DNA of 64,000 nucleotides from Iamia majanohamensis (lineage in GTDB: Bacteria; Actinomycetota; Acidimicrobiia; Acidimicrobiales; Iamiaceae). Location of the stretch: the NCBI RefSeq assembly GCF_028532485.1, contig NZ_CP116942.1:1860001-1924000 (forward strand), read 5' to 3'. This document shows positions 2,145 to 8,343 of this stretch, one piece after another; the stretch's first letter is position 1; every line of letters starts with the position of its first letter. The position numbers and the translations under genes are program-made. The notes beneath the pieces are model-generated. The model was not told where the DNA came from and did not search any database. It saw only the letters and a program-made list of their open reading frames with translations.

Positions 2145-3998
2145 ATGAGGACCACCAGACCACCCCGGCCGGGAGGGGGCGCAGTGCGCCGCCGAACCCT
2201 GGCCTCGCTCGCCGCCCTGGTGCTGACCGCGGCGGCCGTGCTCGGGGCCGCCCCCGCCGGCGCCGCCCCGGGCGACGCTGCGGCCACCGGCCTCACGGCC
2301 GACCTCGACGCCACCGTCGCCGGCGTGTCCGCCGACCTGAGCGGCAGCGTGGGGGCGGTCACCGCCCCGCCGTCGTCGTCGGCCGAGCTGGTCGGCGCCG
2401 ACGCCACCCTGGGCGGCGCCGCCCTCGAGCTCAGCGCCTCGGCGGTCTCCACCGAGGCCACCAGCGAGCCCGGCATCGGCTCCAGTGCCTTCGCCGAGGT
2501 GGCCGACGTCCAGCTCGACGCACCCGTCCTCACCCCGATCATCGGCGGCCTGCTGCTCGACGGCAGCGGCACCGTCATCCGCGCCGAGGCCGACTGCCCG
2601 GTGGGCTCGGCCCCGACCGCATCGGTGAGCGACGACATCACCCTCTCCATCGCCGGCGTCGACGTGGTCGTCGACGCCGACGGGTCGGCCGAGGTCGACC
2701 TCCTGGGCGTGGGCGGCGCCGTCATCGGCACCGTGACCCTGCAGCTCGACGAGACCACCACCACCTCGACCACGGCCGCCGCCGTGGCCGTGCAGCTCGA
2801 CCTCACCGTCGACCTGGTCGGCGTGGCCGTCATCGAGGGCAGCGTGACCATCGCCCAGGCCAGCTGCGAGACGCCGACGGCGGTGGTGCCGTCGGCGGCG
2901 ACGATCGACCCGGATGAGGGTCCGACCTCGGGTGGGACCGATGTGACGATGACGGGCACGGGGTTCGTGCCGGGGGCGACGTCGGTGACCATCGGGGGGA
3001 TCGTGGTCCCTCCGGGTGAGGTGACGGTTGCTCCTGGTGGGGAGTCGTTGGACTTCGTCACGCCGCCGCATGCGGCGGGTGAGGTCGATGTGACGGTGAC
3101 GACGCCGGGTGGGACGACCGGTCCGCTGGCGTTCACCTACGTGCCTCCGGCGGTGGTGCCGTCGGCGGCGACGATCGATCCGGATGAGGGTCCGACCTCG
3201 GGTGGGACCGATGTGACGATGACGGGCACGGGGTTCGTGCCGGGGGCGACGTCGGTGACCATCGGGGGGATCGTCGTTCCTCCGGGTGAGGTGACGGTTG
3301 CTCCTGGTGGGGAGTCGTTGGACTTCGTCACGCCGCCGCATGCGGCGGGTGAGGTCGATGTGACGGTGACGACGCCGGGTGGGACGACCGGTCCGCTGGC
3401 GTTCACCTACGTCGCACCCGACCCGGGCCCGACCGCCGACGACGTCGACCCCGACCAGGGGCCGACCACCGGCGGGACGGTCGTGGTCGTGACCGGCAGC
3501 GGCTTCGTCCCCGGCCAGACCACCGTGACCATCGGTGGGGTCGTCGTGCCCGCCGACGAGGTCGACGTGGCCGACGACGGCACCTCGCTGTCCTTCACCA
3601 CCCCGCCCCACGCGGCGGGTGAGGTGGAGCTGACCGTCACCACCCCCGACGGCACCACCGACCCGCTGACCTACACCTACGTCGCCGCCGACGACGGCGA
3701 CGGTGACGGCGGCCCCGGTGACGGCGGTCCCGGTGACGGCGGCCCGAGCGCCGGTGGCCCGGGTGGCGGCGGACCGTTCGCCGGCGGGCCGTCCGTCGGC
3801 TCGGGTGCCGGGGGACCGTCCTACGGCGCGGGTGACCCGTACGGGTCGCCCACCGCCTCGGACGGCGGCGGGTCGCTGGCTCGCACCGGGAGCGACGTCG
3901 GCACCCTCATCCTCCTGGGGCTGGGCGCCCTGGTGACCGGCGCGCTCCTCAGGGGTGTGGGCCGCCGGTCCCGGGCCTCCCGCACGGCTGCGAGCTGA
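2145..3998 (+). CDS. Secreted IPT/TIG-repeat surface protein with LAxTG-type sorting signal
   Basis: The 617-residue product starts with a basic n-region, a hydrophobic stretch and an Ala-rich cleavage region near residue 43. Residues about 45-240 form a Ser/Thr/Ala/Val-rich beta domain of the kind seen in choice-of-anchor proteins. Three tandem IPT/TIG (immunoglobulin-like) domains follow, each with the GPTSGGT and GTGFVPG signatures. A Gly/Pro/Asp linker leads to LARTG, a hydrophobic segment and a basic tail, i.e. a sortase signal of the LAxTG kind used by class E sortases in actinobacteria. It is therefore probably covalently attached to peptidoglycan and may act as an adhesin. The start has GGAGGGAC upstream of the ATG. 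The first two TIG units are almost identical in DNA and use different codons from the rest of the gene. Confidence 0.85.
   Translation: MRTTRPPRPGGGAVRRRTLASLAALVLTAAAVLGAAPAGAAPGDAAATGLTADLDATVAGVSADLSGSVGAVTAPPSSSAELVGADATLGGAALELSASAVSTEATSEPGIGSSAFAEVADVQLDAPVLTPIIGGLLLDGSGTVIRAEADCPVGSAPTASVSDDITLSIAGVDVVVDADGSAEVDLLGVGGAVIGTVTLQLDETTTTSTTAAAVAVQLDLTVDLVGVAVIEGSVTIAQASCETPTAVVPSAATIDPDEGPTSGGTDVTMTGTGFVPGATSVTIGGIVVPPGEVTVAPGGESLDFVTPPHAAGEVDVTVTTPGGTTGPLAFTYVPPAVVPSAATIDPDEGPTSGGTDVTMTGTGFVPGATSVTIGGIVVPPGEVTVAPGGESLDFVTPPHAAGEVDVTVTTPGGTTGPLAFTYVAPDPGPTADDVDPDQGPTTGGTVVVVTGSGFVPGQTTVTIGGVVVPADEVDVADDGTSLSFTTPPHAAGEVELTVTTPDGTTDPLTYTYVAADDGDGDGGPGDGGPGDGGPSAGGPGGGGPFAGGPSVGSGAGGPSYGAGDPYGSPTASDGGGSLARTGSDVGTLILLGLGALVTGALLRGVGRRSRASRTAAS
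2881..3410 (+). repeat. 270-bp tandem direct repeat encoding two near-identical TIG domains
   Basis: Two copies (2881-3140 and 3151-3410, period 270) differ at only about three positions, all synonymous. The third TIG unit (about 3411-3680) encodes a similar sequence with very different codons. Third positions in the two identical units are clearly richer in T and A than in the surrounding DNA. Confidence 0.9.
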
Positions 3999-4043: not shown

Positions 4044-4057
4044 GTCGCGTCCGCGAG

Positions 4058-4129
4058 AGCGGGTGACGGGAATCGAACCCGCATCGCCTGCTTGGAAGGC
4101 AGGGGCTCTGGCCATTGAGCTACACCCGC
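4058..4129 (-). tRNA. tRNA-Gly (anticodon UCC)
   Basis: On the minus strand the acceptor arm GCGGGTG pairs with CACCCGC. The D arm (AGCTCAATGG), the anticodon stem CCTGC/GCAGG with loop CTTCCAA (anticodon TCC), and the T arm GGGTTCGATTCC are all present. The discriminator is U, and CCA is not encoded. It reads glycine GGA/GGG codons. Confidence 0.96.
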
Positions 4130-4259: not shown

Positions 4260-6470
4260 TCAGGAGGGGAAGCGGGTCTGGGCCTTCTCGTAGTACTCCG
4301 AGAGCGACGCCAGGCTGATGGCCAGGCTGAGGTCGCCCTCGGTGAGCACCCGCTCGGACCAGTAGTCGCTGCCTGCGCTGTCGGCGGTGCGGCCGAGGAG
4401 CGCCTCGTAGACGGCGTCGACCCGCTCCCGGCGCGACTCCTTCGACTGGTACAGCCGGTAGGCGACGCTGGAGCGGCCCCGCCGGGCCGTCTCCGCGGCC
4501 CAGAAGTCGAGGTCGGACTGGCTCGCCGGCCGCAGGAGGATCTTGTCGTAGAGGTCGGCGACCCAGGAGCGGTCGGTGCCGCCGCCGAGGCCGTTGTAGT
4601 ACTCGGGGCTGGCGTAGAGCTTGGCCGCCACCTCGGCCACCGTGCGGCGGCCGCTGCGGATCTCGTCGGTCCAGAAGGTCACCCCGGACGGGTCGCCGGG
4701 GCGGCCGAGGGTGTCCTGGTAGAGCTTCTGCACCAGCGTGGAGACGTACTCCCGGGTGCGGGCCAGGTCGCGGACCACCTGGCCCCGGGTCCGGGTCCCG
4801 TTGCCGAGGGCGGCGTTGGTCTGCTGCAGCTCGGTCGAGGTGGGGGCCCGGCCCAGGAAGTCCTGGTACGCAGCCCGCACGAAGGGCCGGTTGTCGGGCG
4901 GGTCCTGGCCGATGGAGCCGTTCTCGAAGTCCTGGCGGTAGGACCCGTCGGAGAGGCGCTGCGAGGGGCCGGTGGGGTAGCCGAGGGCCCCGCCGGGACC
5001 GCCCTGGGCGCGGTACTGGCCGAGGATCGGCGCCGGCACCAGCCACGAGCCGGTGGTGCCGGTGCCCCACACCTGGGCGGTCTGGGTGGTGAAGGTGACG
5101 CCCCGGTCGTCGCCGACCGACTGGCGGTCGCTCGTCGGGTAGCCGGCGTCGGACTGGTAGCCGCCGTAGGCGAGGTAGGCGTCGAGCAGGCCGCCCCACA
5201 CGGCGTGGGCGCCGGTGGTCGACGTGTAGTAGATCACCCCGCCGTTCTCGAAGATGGTGGCCCGTCCCCGACCGTCGGCCAGGGTGCTCACGTCGGTCTG
5301 GACGTGGCCCAGGGGGCTGTAGATGCCGCCGATGGACTCGTGCTTCAGGTAGATGGCGCCGTGGATCTCCACGACCAGCGAGCCCCGCCGGTAGATCCGG
5401 CCCCGCTCGTAGTCCTGGTAGAGCGAGCGGTCGTCGCCGCTGCGGCGGATGGGCGAGGTGGGCAGCCCCAGCGCCGCGCTGGTGCTGACCCCGCCGTACT
5501 GGAGGAACTTCTGGTGGTACGGGTCGGGGATGCCGTAGGTGCCCTGGGCCCAGCGGTAGATGCCGCCGCCCTGGAACCGCGAGTAGCGGACCCGGGAGTC
5601 GCCGATGACGTCGGTGGTGGGGAAGCCGTACACGCCGCTGGTGCTGCTCGCCGCCCCCCACACGTCGAGGATCGAGCCGTGGACCTCGTGGGCCCCGGTG
5701 GCCGAGCTCGAGTAGAGGCGCCCGTTCTGGTACACCGCGTAGCGGCCCCGGCCCTCGGCCGTGTTCCGCTCCGACAGGGTGCGGATGCCGAGGAAGCCGT
5801 CGGGGCCGCCCAGGGCGTAGTAGCGGCGGGTGATGGCCGAGTCGCACTCGGCGCTGACGCAGGCGCCGCCGTGCTCGACGGTGCGGTTGTCGGTGAGGGC
5901 CCGGGTCGAGCAGGCCGCGTCGTAGGACCACGGGGTGATGCAGATGGCGACCCGGCAGGCGACGGGGCCGTAGCAGGAGATCTGCTGGTTGCACTGCCCG
6001 TAGCGGAACTGGTTGCAGCAGGTGCGCCGCCCGTCGCAGGAGGCACCCGAGCAGCGGCAGGAGCACTGGGTGGGGCAGGTGGCGTTGCAGTCGATGATGT
6101 AGCGGGGGCCGCCGCAGCAGTACGCCGCGTTGTCGGCCTTCCACCAGCCGGCCACGAAGGTGTTGGGCGGGCACGAGTTCTTGCCGCTGTTGATGGTGCA
6201 GCAGAAGGCGGTCCAGCCGTCGCCGCAGGTGCCGCACACCGCGCCGTAGGCGGTGCCGGGCTTGAAGATGAAGGTGGTGGGGTCGACGGCCAGGGCCGAG
6301 CCGACCACGGCGGTGCGGGCGAGGAAGCGGCGCCGGCTGTGCTTGCCCGAGAGGATGCCGGAGGTGCGGGCCACGACCCGCTCGGCGATGGTGGGGGCCG
6401 GCGCCGCCGGGGCCGCGGGCGCGGCGTCGGCGGCCGGGCGGGCCCGGCGCACGAGGTCGAGGGGGCTCAT
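4260..6470 (-). CDS. Tat-exported MauA-like Cys-rich protein fused to LGFP repeats and DUF4214
   Basis: The protein has 736 residues. A twin-arginine signal (SRRRFLA at 45-51, then a hydrophobic stretch) indicates folded export. Residues 79-209 hold 22 cysteines; the order, with SCPPNTFVAGWW (99-110) and RYIIDC (123-128), resembles the disulphide-rich methylamine dehydrogenase light chain (MauA). The Trp pair at 109-110 sits near the MauA first TTQ tryptophan, but the second TTQ position appears to be Ser (ISCYG, 164-168). So quinone-cofactor formation is doubtful. Residues about 210-520 are LGFP-like repeats (GxxGFLG, ALGLPT, ALGYPT), known in actinobacterial wall-associated proteins. Residues about 525-735 are three DUF4214 units (FLGRAP, TLGRPGD, LLGRTAD). 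It is the last gene of an operon; its ATG overlaps the preceding stop (ATGA). The MauA relationship is inference from motif order and from MauE/MauD-like neighbours. Confidence 0.8.
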   Translation of the reverse strand: MSPLDLVRRARPAADAAPAAPAAPAPTIAERVVARTSGILSGKHSRRRFLARTAVVGSALAVDPTTFIFKPGTAYGAVCGTCGDGWTAFCCTINSGKNSCPPNTFVAGWWKADNAAYCCGGPRYIIDCNATCPTQCSCRCSGASCDGRRTCCNQFRYGQCNQQISCYGPVACRVAICITPWSYDAACSTRALTDNRTVEHGGACVSAECDSAITRRYYALGGPDGFLGIRTLSERNTAEGRGRYAVYQNGRLYSSSATGAHEVHGSILDVWGAASSTSGVYGFPTTDVIGDSRVRYSRFQGGGIYRWAQGTYGIPDPYHQKFLQYGGVSTSAALGLPTSPIRRSGDDRSLYQDYERGRIYRRGSLVVEIHGAIYLKHESIGGIYSPLGHVQTDVSTLADGRGRATIFENGGVIYYTSTTGAHAVWGGLLDAYLAYGGYQSDAGYPTSDRQSVGDDRGVTFTTQTAQVWGTGTTGSWLVPAPILGQYRAQGGPGGALGYPTGPSQRLSDGSYRQDFENGSIGQDPPDNRPFVRAAYQDFLGRAPTSTELQQTNAALGNGTRTRGQVVRDLARTREYVSTLVQKLYQDTLGRPGDPSGVTFWTDEIRSGRRTVAEVAAKLYASPEYYNGLGGGTDRSWVADLYDKILLRPASQSDLDFWAAETARRGRSSVAYRLYQSKESRRERVDAVYEALLGRTADSAGSDYWSERVLTEGDLSLAISLASLSEYYEKAQTRFPS

Positions 6471-6955
6471 CGGGGGGTCACCTCGATCTGGGACGTGAGG
6501 TCGTTGGTGCGGGGGGTCAGCTCGGCGGCGTCGCGCTGGTCGCCGAGCACGACGTAGAGGCAGAAGGCCCGGCCGTTGAGGGTGAAGAAGCGCTGGGCCC
6601 CGGCCTGGCCCCGCTGGACCCGCTGCAGGGCCTGGGTGCTGAACATGCGGGTCGTGAGCCGGGGGACCCGGCTCACGGTGGGGAAGAGGGCGGTGCCGGC
6701 GCTGTCGGGGCCGTACTCGACCACCGCGACCAGGACGTGGCCGGTGCCCATGACGTCGACGGCACCGCTGCCGAAGTCGCCGCGGTCCTCGGGCAGGGCG
6801 AAGTTGGCCATGTGGAGCACGGGGCCGGTGTCCTCGGAGACCGCCGTGGTGCCGCCCTTGCGGCGCTCGGCGGGGCCGGTGGCGGCGCGCTTGCCGAGAC
6901 GGCCCTCCCAGCCCGCGGGGAGCTGGGCACGGATGCCGTGGGCCTGGATCTCCAT
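6467..6955 (-). CDS. Conserved hypothetical protein in the MauE/MauD-like operon
   Basis: This 162-residue protein has no signal peptide or membrane segment. It starts MEIQAHGIRAQLPAGWEG, has a central Gly/Asp-rich region and ends in beta-rich segments (FFTLNGRAFCLYVVLGDQ). I do not recognise a family. The LPAGWEG opening resembles the edge strand of small beta-sandwich proteins, but that is only an impression. It lies 30 bases after the thioredoxin-like gene and its stop overlaps the start of the MauA-like fusion gene. Tight coupling suggests it acts with that export substrate, for example as a cytoplasmic chaperone or assembly factor; this is inference. Confidence 0.75.
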   Translation of the reverse strand: MEIQAHGIRAQLPAGWEGRLGKRAATGPAERRKGGTTAVSEDTGPVLHMANFALPEDRGDFGSGAVDVMGTGHVLVAVVEYGPDSAGTALFPTVSRVPRLTTRMFSTQALQRVQRGQAGAQRFFTLNGRAFCLYVVLGDQRDAAELTPRTNDLTSQIEVTPR

Positions 6956-6985
6956 CGCTCTCCTCTCCGCCGCGCCGGGACGACG

Positions 6986-7789
6986 CTAGTGCTCGTGGGT
7001 CGGGCCGTCGGGGTGGTCGGCGTCGGCCTCGGTGGCCGGGCCGAACAGGCTGGGGTCCCCCGGGGCGATGCCCGCGGCCATGAGCTCGTCGTCGACGCGC
7101 CGCTCGCGCTCGTCGTCGGCCCGGTACTTCTGCACCCGCCGGGCCTCGAGGTCGGCGGCGTAGGAGGCGTCGTCGGTCACCTGGGTGAGCAGGCCCTTGA
7201 CCTGGTCCCAGTCGATGCCGGTGCCCTCGCCCTGCACCGCGCCCGAGCGGCCGTCGACCAGCACGAAGTACGGGGAGCCGGGCACGTCGTAGGACATCCA
7301 GGCGTCGTTGGTCATCACCACCGGGACGGCCTTGGGGGCGAGGTCGGCCACCGCCGCCGGGCTCTCCTGGTCGGGCCCCTTGGTCACCACCACGAGGCGG
7401 ACGTCGCGGGGGAGGCCGAGCTTGGCCGGCTTCTGGAAGGCGTCCCAGAAGCGCTGGCAGGTGAGGCAGGTCCCGGAGAGGAACGCGACGAGCGTGCGGT
7501 GCTCGACCCCGGTGACCCGCACGGTGAGGGCGTCGTCGTCGACCCCGACGCCCGCCAGGTCGCGGCTCTCGGTGAAGCCCTCCCGCTCCGGCGGGGCCTG
7601 CACCTCGGGGAAGGTGGTGAACTCGTCGCGGCCCACCGTGCGGGGACCGCGGGCGGGGGCGGCCCCCTCGGCGCCGCCGTCGAGCTCGTGCAGGCGACGG
7701 AGGATGTCGGCGTGGCTGCGCAGCAGGCCCAGGACCAGCAGGGTCAGCACGGCCACCACCAGGGCGAGGGCGACGACGACGGCGGCCAT
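6986..7789 (-). CDS. MauD/TlpA-like membrane-anchored thioredoxin-fold protein
   Basis: This is a 267-residue protein with one N-terminal membrane helix (residues 2-22) and a thioredoxin domain facing the cell exterior. The redox motif is Cys108-Leu-Thr-Cys111 in SGTCLTCQRFW, and the cis-proline loop is VPGSPYF. The C-terminal 50 residues are charged and end in a His-rich tail. In the mau operons of methylotrophs, MauD is the periplasmic thiol-disulphide protein required for the multiply disulphide-bonded MauA light chain. Here the same pairing occurs next to a 22-cysteine exported protein. The ATG at 7789 overlaps the stop of the upstream MauE-like gene (ATGA), so the two are translationally coupled. 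Confidence 0.88.
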   Translation of the reverse strand: MAAVVVALALVVAVLTLLVLGLLRSHADILRRLHELDGGAEGAAPARGPRTVGRDEFTTFPEVQAPPEREGFTESRDLAGVGVDDDALTVRVTGVEHRTLVAFLSGTCLTCQRFWDAFQKPAKLGLPRDVRLVVVTKGPDQESPAAVADLAPKAVPVVMTNDAWMSYDVPGSPYFVLVDGRSGAVQGEGTGIDWDQVKGLLTQVTDDASYAADLEARRVQKYRADDERERRVDDELMAAGIAPGDPSLFGPATEADADHPDGPTHEH

Positions 7790-8343
7790 CAGGCGGCGGC
7801 CTCGTCGACGGCGCGCAGGGCCCGCAGGGCGGGGAGGTCGGTGAGCACGGCCTGGATGCCCCACGCCCCGAGGGCGGCGAGGAGGGCGACGGCCACGGTG
7901 GCGACCGGGGCGTCGCCCAGCCCGGCGACCACGCCGTCGGCGCCGGTGGCCGTCGCCGCCGCGGCCGCACCGGCGAGGGCCAGGTTCACCAGCACGTGGG
8001 ACCACCCCACCGGCGCGGAGGAGTCGCCGAAGCAGCCGCAGTCGGCGACCTCGCCGGTGCGGGCGGCCCGGCGCACCTGGGCGGTGGAGACGGCCGCGAA
8101 CCCGAGGTAGAGCAGGGCGACGGGTGCCGCGGCCCAGCCGCCCACGACCGTCGCCAGGGCCGCGGCCGCCAGCTCCAGGGCGCCGAGGGCGCGCACGACC
8201 GGGTCGGTGCCGGGCAGGCCGAGGCGGGCCAGGGCCAGGCCGGTGGGCGCGGGGCGCCGCAGCTTGGCCAGGCCGGCCACCGCGAGCACGGCGGCCGCGG
8301 CCAGGAGCGGCCCGGTGGCGGGGGAGAGGGAGGCGGTGATCAC
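7789..8343 (-). CDS. MauE/DoxX-like redox-associated membrane protein
   Basis: This 184-residue protein has four hydrophobic segments and, between segments two and three, a VADCGCFG motif (Cys102, Cys104). The CxCFG loop is characteristic of the MauE / methylamine-utilisation branch of DoxX-like proteins, thought to pass electrons to or from the exported MauD partner. I place the GTG start at 8343; upstream of it the frame has no other plausible start before the divergent tig promoter region. It is the first gene of the four-gene operon running to 4260. A TACGGT hexamer lies at 8375-8370. No ribosome-binding site is visible. Confidence 0.87.
   Translation of the reverse strand: MITASLSPATGPLLAAAAVLAVAGLAKLRRPAPTGLALARLGLPGTDPVVRALGALELAAAALATVVGGWAAAPVALLYLGFAAVSTAQVRRAARTGEVADCGCFGDSSAPVGWSHVLVNLALAGAAAAATATGADGVVAGLGDAPVATVAVALLAALGAWGIQAVLTDLPALRALRAVDEAAA

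Follow-up and report, generated by a model that had tools for sequence, protein, structure and literature searches.

Introduction

MauE and MauD are needed for the formation of disulphides in MauA of Paracoccus, and to our knowledge MauE, MauD and MauF have so far been described solely as accessory proteins of a single enzyme, methylamine dehydrogenase (MADH). Genes for relatives of MauE and MauD lie at positions 4260-8343 of a 64,000-nucleotide stretch of the Iamia majanohamensis genome (contig NZ_CP116942.1, positions 1,860,001 to 1,924,000; the whole stretch is called the window below) together with a gene for a protein containing 22 cysteines. An earlier note, made from the letters of this DNA alone, had taken the group for a four-gene operon that folds a relative of MauA and displays it on the cell surface rather than for an amine dehydrogenase operon. 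Here, we addressed what such genes may be doing apart from their enzyme, whether their association is conserved and how the cysteine-rich protein is related to MauA. Judged from sequence comparisons, the set is probably an actinobacterial Mau-type export-and-folding cassette for a cysteine-rich client and not an amine dehydrogenase operon, and its overlooked fifth component, a MauF-like membrane protein, appears to be a selenoprotein in most relatives.

Organization and conservation of the operon

The four genes do form an operon, and it is conserved. All four genes were found on the minus strand within the limits claimed for them, 4260-8343. The MauE-like membrane protein (7789..8343, stop included; 184 amino acids, GTG start, CGCFG motif) matches PF07291 with 62.5 bits (6.3e-17), above the gathering score (cut-off 27). 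The gene of a membrane-anchored MauD-like thioredoxin-fold protein of 267 amino acids with a CLTC motif (6986..7789) reaches 20.3 bits against TIGR02661, far under the equivalog cut-off of 188.6, and is recognized as a distant homologue by hhalign. Then come the gene of a 162-amino-acid protein (6467..6955), in which no signal peptide is seen, and that of the 736-amino-acid cysteine-rich protein with LGFP and DUF4214 modules (4260..6470). The latter has a twin-arginine translocation (Tat) signal scoring 14.9 bits, just under the model cut-off of 16.7, with a clear SRRRFLAR motif. The 22 cysteines assigned to residues 79-209 (5844..6236) proved to be an exact count and represent every cysteine of the protein. 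Between the MauD-like gene and that of the 162-residue protein the gap is 30 bases, as described, and of the two proposed ATGA overlaps the one between the 162-residue and cysteine-rich genes stands, the MauE/MauD junction being a TGATG with an overlap of one base.

Genes of the cysteine-rich domain family were detected in 42/198 genomes of the class and 29/396 of the phylum, and at not less than 248 places in GTDB genomes; 80 of these at least 248 loci were kept, all placed in Actinomycetota by their record titles and distributed over Acidimicrobiia, Nitriliruptoria and Actinomycetes. In 41 of the 44 loci that extend 4.5 kb or more to either side of the cysteine-rich gene, this gene occurs together with the MauE, MauD and 162-residue genes, so that the operon is not a chance association, and the co-occurrence proposed as a check of it is indeed found across genomes. 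One exception among the loci (L088) is an unlinked second cysteine-rich copy in isolate YX2bin23, the genome of which also has a full cassette (L085), so that a single folding set may be shared by two clients. Locus counts here and below include some near-copies, as the same genomes are present in two collections; figures for selenocysteine insertion elements and for the tree refer to unique sequences.

In most relatives a further membrane protein, overlooked in the earlier note, is encoded between the MauD-like and the 162-residue proteins. It was compared by hhalign, together with its partners, to reference proteins encoded on nine plasmids in clusters annotated as mau or as related amine dehydrogenase systems, a set in which MauF is represented by a single Paracoccus sequence. 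The extra protein matches MauF (97.8%, E 1e-12), and the other two match MauD (98.3%, E 2e-14) and MauE (98.2%, E 5e-14). The WSPCG motif is common to Paracoccus MauF and to those MauF-like proteins that have cysteine at the critical position, and CxC[FL]G occurs in 101/101 MauE rows and CxxC in all full-length MauD rows. The commonest gene order is mauE-mauD-mauF-P162-cys, followed by mauE-cys-mauD-mauF-P162 (P162 standing for the 162-residue protein), and a MauF-like gene, linked or unlinked, is present in all 18 genomes searched whole, the copy in G148 being partial. Taken with the conserved linkage, these matches support the proposal that a Mau-type maturation set serves the cysteine-rich protein.

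The rest of the amine dehydrogenase system was not encountered. No relatives of MauB, MauG, MauJ, MauN or amicyanin were found in any locus, which bears out the claim that no MauB-like heavy chain is linked and extends it to MauG and amicyanin; in the window's genome the best MauB score is 13.8 bits, below the 21-bit cut-off. One CCP_MauG-type protein exists in that genome, unlinked to the operon. Its match (L163, C1:3622829-3623425) is over the cut-off and lies in a 710-amino-acid frame with two CxxCH sites, the N-terminal part of which looks repeat- or propeller-like by eye.

No hit to the 162-residue protein was obtained among Pfam and NCBIfam models. Its AlphaFold model is confident (predicted local distance difference test, pLDDT, 93) and predicts a fold of the Mog1/PsbP/EagT6 type, VIA-align giving Z of 4-7 to BT_1490, Tsi3, PsbP, LpqN, Mog1 and EagT6/SciW, which denotes a common fold only. 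Since its start is devoid of a signal peptide, a cytoplasmic role is the simplest guess, in which it might hold the client, or the signal of the client, until export.

The cysteine-rich domain and its relation to MauA

The domain is conserved in 120 relatives, with 16-26 cysteines. The GWW triplet (residues 108-110; 6141..6149, minus strand), counterpart of the MauA Trp57 region, is invariant in 120/120, and Y[YI]xDC is kept in 119/120. The tryptophan site at 109-110 noticed previously is thus present, and the second tryptophan of the tryptophan tryptophylquinone (TTQ) cofactor is replaced, as had been claimed: the site expected for MauA Trp108 is Ser165 in the window (5976..5978, minus strand), directly before the cysteine of SCYG, and it is not tryptophan in 117/120 relatives. 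The three others (L108, L114 and L127, all Pseudonocardiales) have tryptophan at this place, in the context NTQIPW, and have lost the following cysteine; judging by these residues, they are the only members that could in principle form a TTQ-like pair.

Whether the domain is a MauA relative is a question on which different comparisons give different answers. PF02975, the model of MADH and aromatic amine dehydrogenase (AADH) light chains, gave no match up to E 10 with 32 relatives and none in the window's genome, with Paracoccus denitrificans MauA scoring 181.5 bits as a control. Search against sequences of the PDB yielded no hit or a marginal one, and profile-profile comparison with MauA was marginal as well (P 0.022, 2/100 column shuffles being as good). 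Direct membership in the MauA family is not claimed because of these absent or marginal sequence matches. The AlphaFold model of the domain (pLDDT 85.6) gave a poor Foldseek match (E 4); on structure comparison all 14 entries with Z of at least 2 are MADH or AADH light chains, although the similarity is weak (Z 2.5-2.9 over 71-83 residues). The structural check advised for this domain has therefore returned TTQ light chains exclusively, at low Z and with the two TTQ tryptophans not both kept, and kinship with MauA is suggested by fold and context and not established by sequence.

These figures leave room for another explanation, possible though doubtful in our estimate, according to which the domain is not homologous to MauA, and an unrelated cysteine-rich surface domain has come to be served by a Mau-type disulphide machinery of general use. 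The silence of PF02975, the shuffles, the Foldseek value and Z below 3 all speak for it, as does the occurrence of MauE/MauD with small candidate peptides in Streptomyces described in PMC7794033. It has to be set against the fact that only light chains of MADH or AADH are among the structures at Z of at least 2, that the CPPGT..W..Y-I..DC register is the same, and that Tat export and partner proteins are the same too. On account of fold matches and context we consider a distant relationship to MauA probable but unproved. Neither a complete lack of MauA likeness nor MauE/MauD genes routinely separated from the client was found outright, both of which the earlier note had named as evidence that would count against its interpretation.

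The C-terminal modules are far less constant than the domain. In the window six LGFP repeat stretches (4902..5792; PF08310, 9.6e-41) are followed by four DUF4214 stretches (4263..4901; PF13946, 9.7e-26), both on the minus strand and with approximate limits. Among ten relatives scanned, LGFP occurs in five (in one also with CWB2), SLH in one and FG-GAP in one, three modules having no Pfam name, and in L121, L149 (a member of Egibacteraceae), L174 and L175 the protein ends right after the domain. LGFP and DUF4214, to which surface display had been ascribed, are thus clear in the window and not constant elsewhere: with modules variable or missing, display would be the usual form and not the sole one. 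The idea that the modules replace the MauB propeller in cis was dropped because it is at odds with members that have SLH or CWB2 or lack a module altogether. TGA codons inside the cysteine-rich domain were also considered as recoding, and in the checked cases (G117, G251 and G441) they are natural stops of module-free members.

Probable selenocysteine in MauF-like proteins

The invariant cysteine codon of the MauF-like gene reads WSP-TGA-G in 94/105 loci and WSP-TGC-G in the remaining 11/105. MauF-like protein sequence is conserved on either side of the TGA, and no other stop type occurs. Downstream of it, the constraints of the bacterial selenocysteine insertion sequence (bSECIS) model of PMC13188914 are satisfied by 69/75 unique genes with TGA versus 0/17 with a cysteine codon, the proportion among synonymous-codon shuffles having a mean of 19% and a maximum of 32%. 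The hairpins have G at the loop start, a spacing of 29-33 nt and a mean energy of -12.3 kcal/mol. RNAalifold found no single consensus hairpin over all selenocysteine (Sec) genes because two registers coexist, with a GG[TGC] loop at +33 and a GGTC loop at +29, which were resolved by the constraint-based scan. Apart from this element, a second hairpin, GATGCT-NNNN-AGCATC, was observed at +11 to +26 after the TGA, with a mean of 5.84/6 pairs versus 3.33 in synonymous shuffles.

The Sec machinery was surveyed in 46 cassette genomes, comprising 32 with TGA, eight without Sec machinery and six having the machinery together with only the cysteine form. Calls of SelB, SelA and tRNA-Sec are based on family scores in partly incomplete genomes. 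The 55-bit line for tRNA-Sec is our own; most matches below it are probably tRNA-Ser, although a few second copies also reach 55-56 bits. All 32 TGA genomes have SelB over the cut-off (28) and/or tRNA-Sec at 55 bits or more (30), and none of the eight genomes with neither SelB nor tRNA-Sec, the window's included, has the TGA (Fisher P 1e-5), MauF being present there in the cysteine form alone. SelA was found in none of these eight and in 7/8 TGA genomes tested, the exception, G188, being a 79% complete genome. Moreover, nine loci have selA at a distance of not more than about 6 kb from the cassette: G087, G276, Phycicoccus sp. Root101, Phycicoccus sp. Soil802, Pedococcus sp. 5OH_020, P. bigeumensis (Pedococcus), Knoellia koreensis, a Nitriliruptorales genome and a Microthrixaceae genome. 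In seven selB is beside it or present in part, and the G087 locus also holds tRNA-Sec, called independently by ARAGORN. In the tree one branch with support 100/100 splits 75 Sec from 16 Cys forms.

That the TGA is an ordinary stop, with the downstream frame representing a separate gene or a pseudogene, is hardly credible in view of these data. Automatic finders of open reading frames (ORFs) do end there, as this explanation would have it; yet it has to account for a TGA falling always on the cysteine codon in 94/105 loci, for conservation on both sides and the lack of any other stop type, and for the hairpin, the co-occurrence with Sec machinery and the adjoining selA/selB. Since cysteine homologues, bSECIS hairpins, machinery and gene neighbourhood agree, the MauF-like protein appears to be a selenoprotein family in most relatives, uncatalogued in the sources checked. 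NCBIfam models gave no hit to the family, neither it nor WSPUG proteins are among the 119 prokaryotic selenoprotein families of the 2026 catalogue (PMC13188914), and nothing pairing "selenoprotein" with "MauF" was met in the literature searched; the family was probably missed because gene finders cut at UGA. The match to PF13386 (DsbD_2) is weak for ORFs split at the TGA, and on reading through the L079 protein reaches 27.4 bits, over the cut-off. Another MauF-like frame of G042, divergent and interrupted once by TGA (L206, G042:C8:193062-193724; E 9.5e-26), was noticed as a second one and possibly encodes a further membrane selenoprotein.

The window's genome has a cysteine form, WSPCGLSML, encoded outside the window (C1:3409142-3409813) at a distance of 1.5 Mb from the operon, and SelB, tRNA-Sec and SelA were not found in this genome. 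In two close relatives, L079 (78% identity over the cysteine-rich domain) and L082 (76%), a TGA-containing MauF is kept between MauD and the 162-residue gene, for which reason the four-gene operon seems to descend from a selenium-linked ancestor of five genes, the direction of change being inferred. The lineage of the window would have lost the Sec machinery and would now use the unlinked cysteine MauF.

Possible function of the cassette

The preference for an export-and-folding cassette over an amine dehydrogenase operon follows from the absence of MauB, MauG and amicyanin relatives in the loci, the lack of a MauB score over the cut-off in the genome, and the missing second TTQ tryptophan. 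The client would be exported by Tat, perhaps after being held by the Mog1/PsbP-like 162-residue protein, which is a guess; outside the membrane, MauE (CxC) and MauD (CxxC) would form and reshuffle about ten disulphides, and MauF may use its one Cys or Sec to relay electrons or thiol exchange from one side of the membrane to the other and in this way keep MauD active, with electron direction also a guess. The folded domain would then be borne on the surface by the variable C-terminal module, LGFP or another, or released as a small protein where the module is missing. Several observations weigh against this scheme: the module-free proteins of L121 and L149, by which display is not a universal function; the single conserved Cys/Sec of MauF in place of the pair used by CcdA/DsbD relays; the six genomes with Sec machinery that carry only cysteine MauF; and conservation of GWW stricter than simple folding would demand.

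The last point keeps a modified tryptophan in consideration, as GWW is invariant. The domain might be an enzyme or an electron carrier with a Trp-derived cofactor on GWW, matured by the cassette in the way MADH is. GWW and Y[YI]xDC match the neighbourhoods of MauA Trp57 and Asp76-Cys77, all three Mau accessory families are kept, the fold matches are confined to TTQ light chains and three Pseudonocardiales loci have tryptophan at the second site; nevertheless, we regard this as unlikely, given that neither a MauG-like protein nor a heavy chain nor an electron acceptor is encoded in the loci, that nearly all members lack the second tryptophan and that the sole CCP_MauG-type protein of the window's genome is encoded elsewhere. 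The more far-reaching version, in which a phylum-wide selenium-dependent system would install a new Trp-derived modification at GWW, yielding a wall-anchored extracellular redox protein, seems to us rather unlikely. Alternatively, the domain could bind metal or stay reduced, with the Mau-type proteins supplying electrons that keep its thiols free. Many CxC and CC pairs fit this suggestion, and a DsbD-type MauF, as in L079, hints at a reducing pathway; Tat export, in contrast, leads to an oxidising space, and the precedent for MauE/MauD is disulphide formation in MauA, restated as a proposal for MauE in PMC7794033, so that we find a metal-binding or reduced domain very unlikely.

In these bacteria MauE, MauD and MauF are found together across a phylum in the absence of an amine dehydrogenase, which allows the general chemistry of this trio to be studied with a simpler client. 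Among cultured bacteria, strains of Phycicoccus, Pedococcus, Knoellia and Janibacter have the cassette, and the module-free proteins of L121, L149, L174 and L175 are good small targets for structure work. Adjoining selA, usually with selB, in nine loci suggests that this folding pathway may be a main reason to keep selenocysteine in those lineages.

As to the surroundings of the operon in the window, it is flanked on one side by tRNA-Gly (4057-4129) and on the other by genes which, from their translations, we take to be tig, clpP and clpX. Adjoining it is also a gene for a 617-amino-acid repeat surface protein (2145-3998, plus strand), with IPT/TIG-like repeats recognized by eye, which ends in LARTG and a hydrophobic tail and is possibly sortase-anchored.

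Comparison with known systems

Reuse of MauE and MauD away from methylamine oxidation is shared with the decRiPPter clusters of Streptomyces (PMC7794033), which are characterized by small candidate precursors of ribosomally synthesized and post-translationally modified peptides; MauF-like proteins, the 162-residue protein and a MauA-like domain are not among the features reported in the available text of that work. With the 119 known prokaryotic selenoprotein families (PMC13188914) the MauF-like family has in common a UGA with bSECIS, cysteine homologues and Sec machinery, the rhodanese/DsbD-fusion selenoprotein TsoB (PMC13188914) being nearest by name and differing in its motif (UxxxxU). The CcdA/DsbD carriers (PF13386/PF02683) are similar in having a redox Cys/Sec at the start of a conserved membrane region, with PF13386 over its cut-off in L079, whereas MauF-like proteins have one conserved Cys/Sec instead of a pair. 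Light chains of MADH and AADH (MauA/AauA, PF02975) resemble the client in being cysteine-rich and Tat-exported and in CPPGT..W..DC, with a weak but exclusive fold match, and the client domain differs in the lack of a PF02975 match and of the second TTQ tryptophan, in extra cysteine-rich inserts and in fused C-terminal modules. The closest parallel is mauF/mauE/mauD with mauA of P. denitrificans, where MauE, MauD and MauF are homologous, WSPCG is shared and a Tat-exported client, rich in disulphides or, in the cassette, predicted to be so, is likewise encoded alongside. Compared with it, the cassette is free of mauB, mauG, mauJ and amicyanin and has gained the 162-residue protein, while its client, without the second TTQ tryptophan, has more cysteines and wall or repeat modules, and its MauF mostly has Sec.

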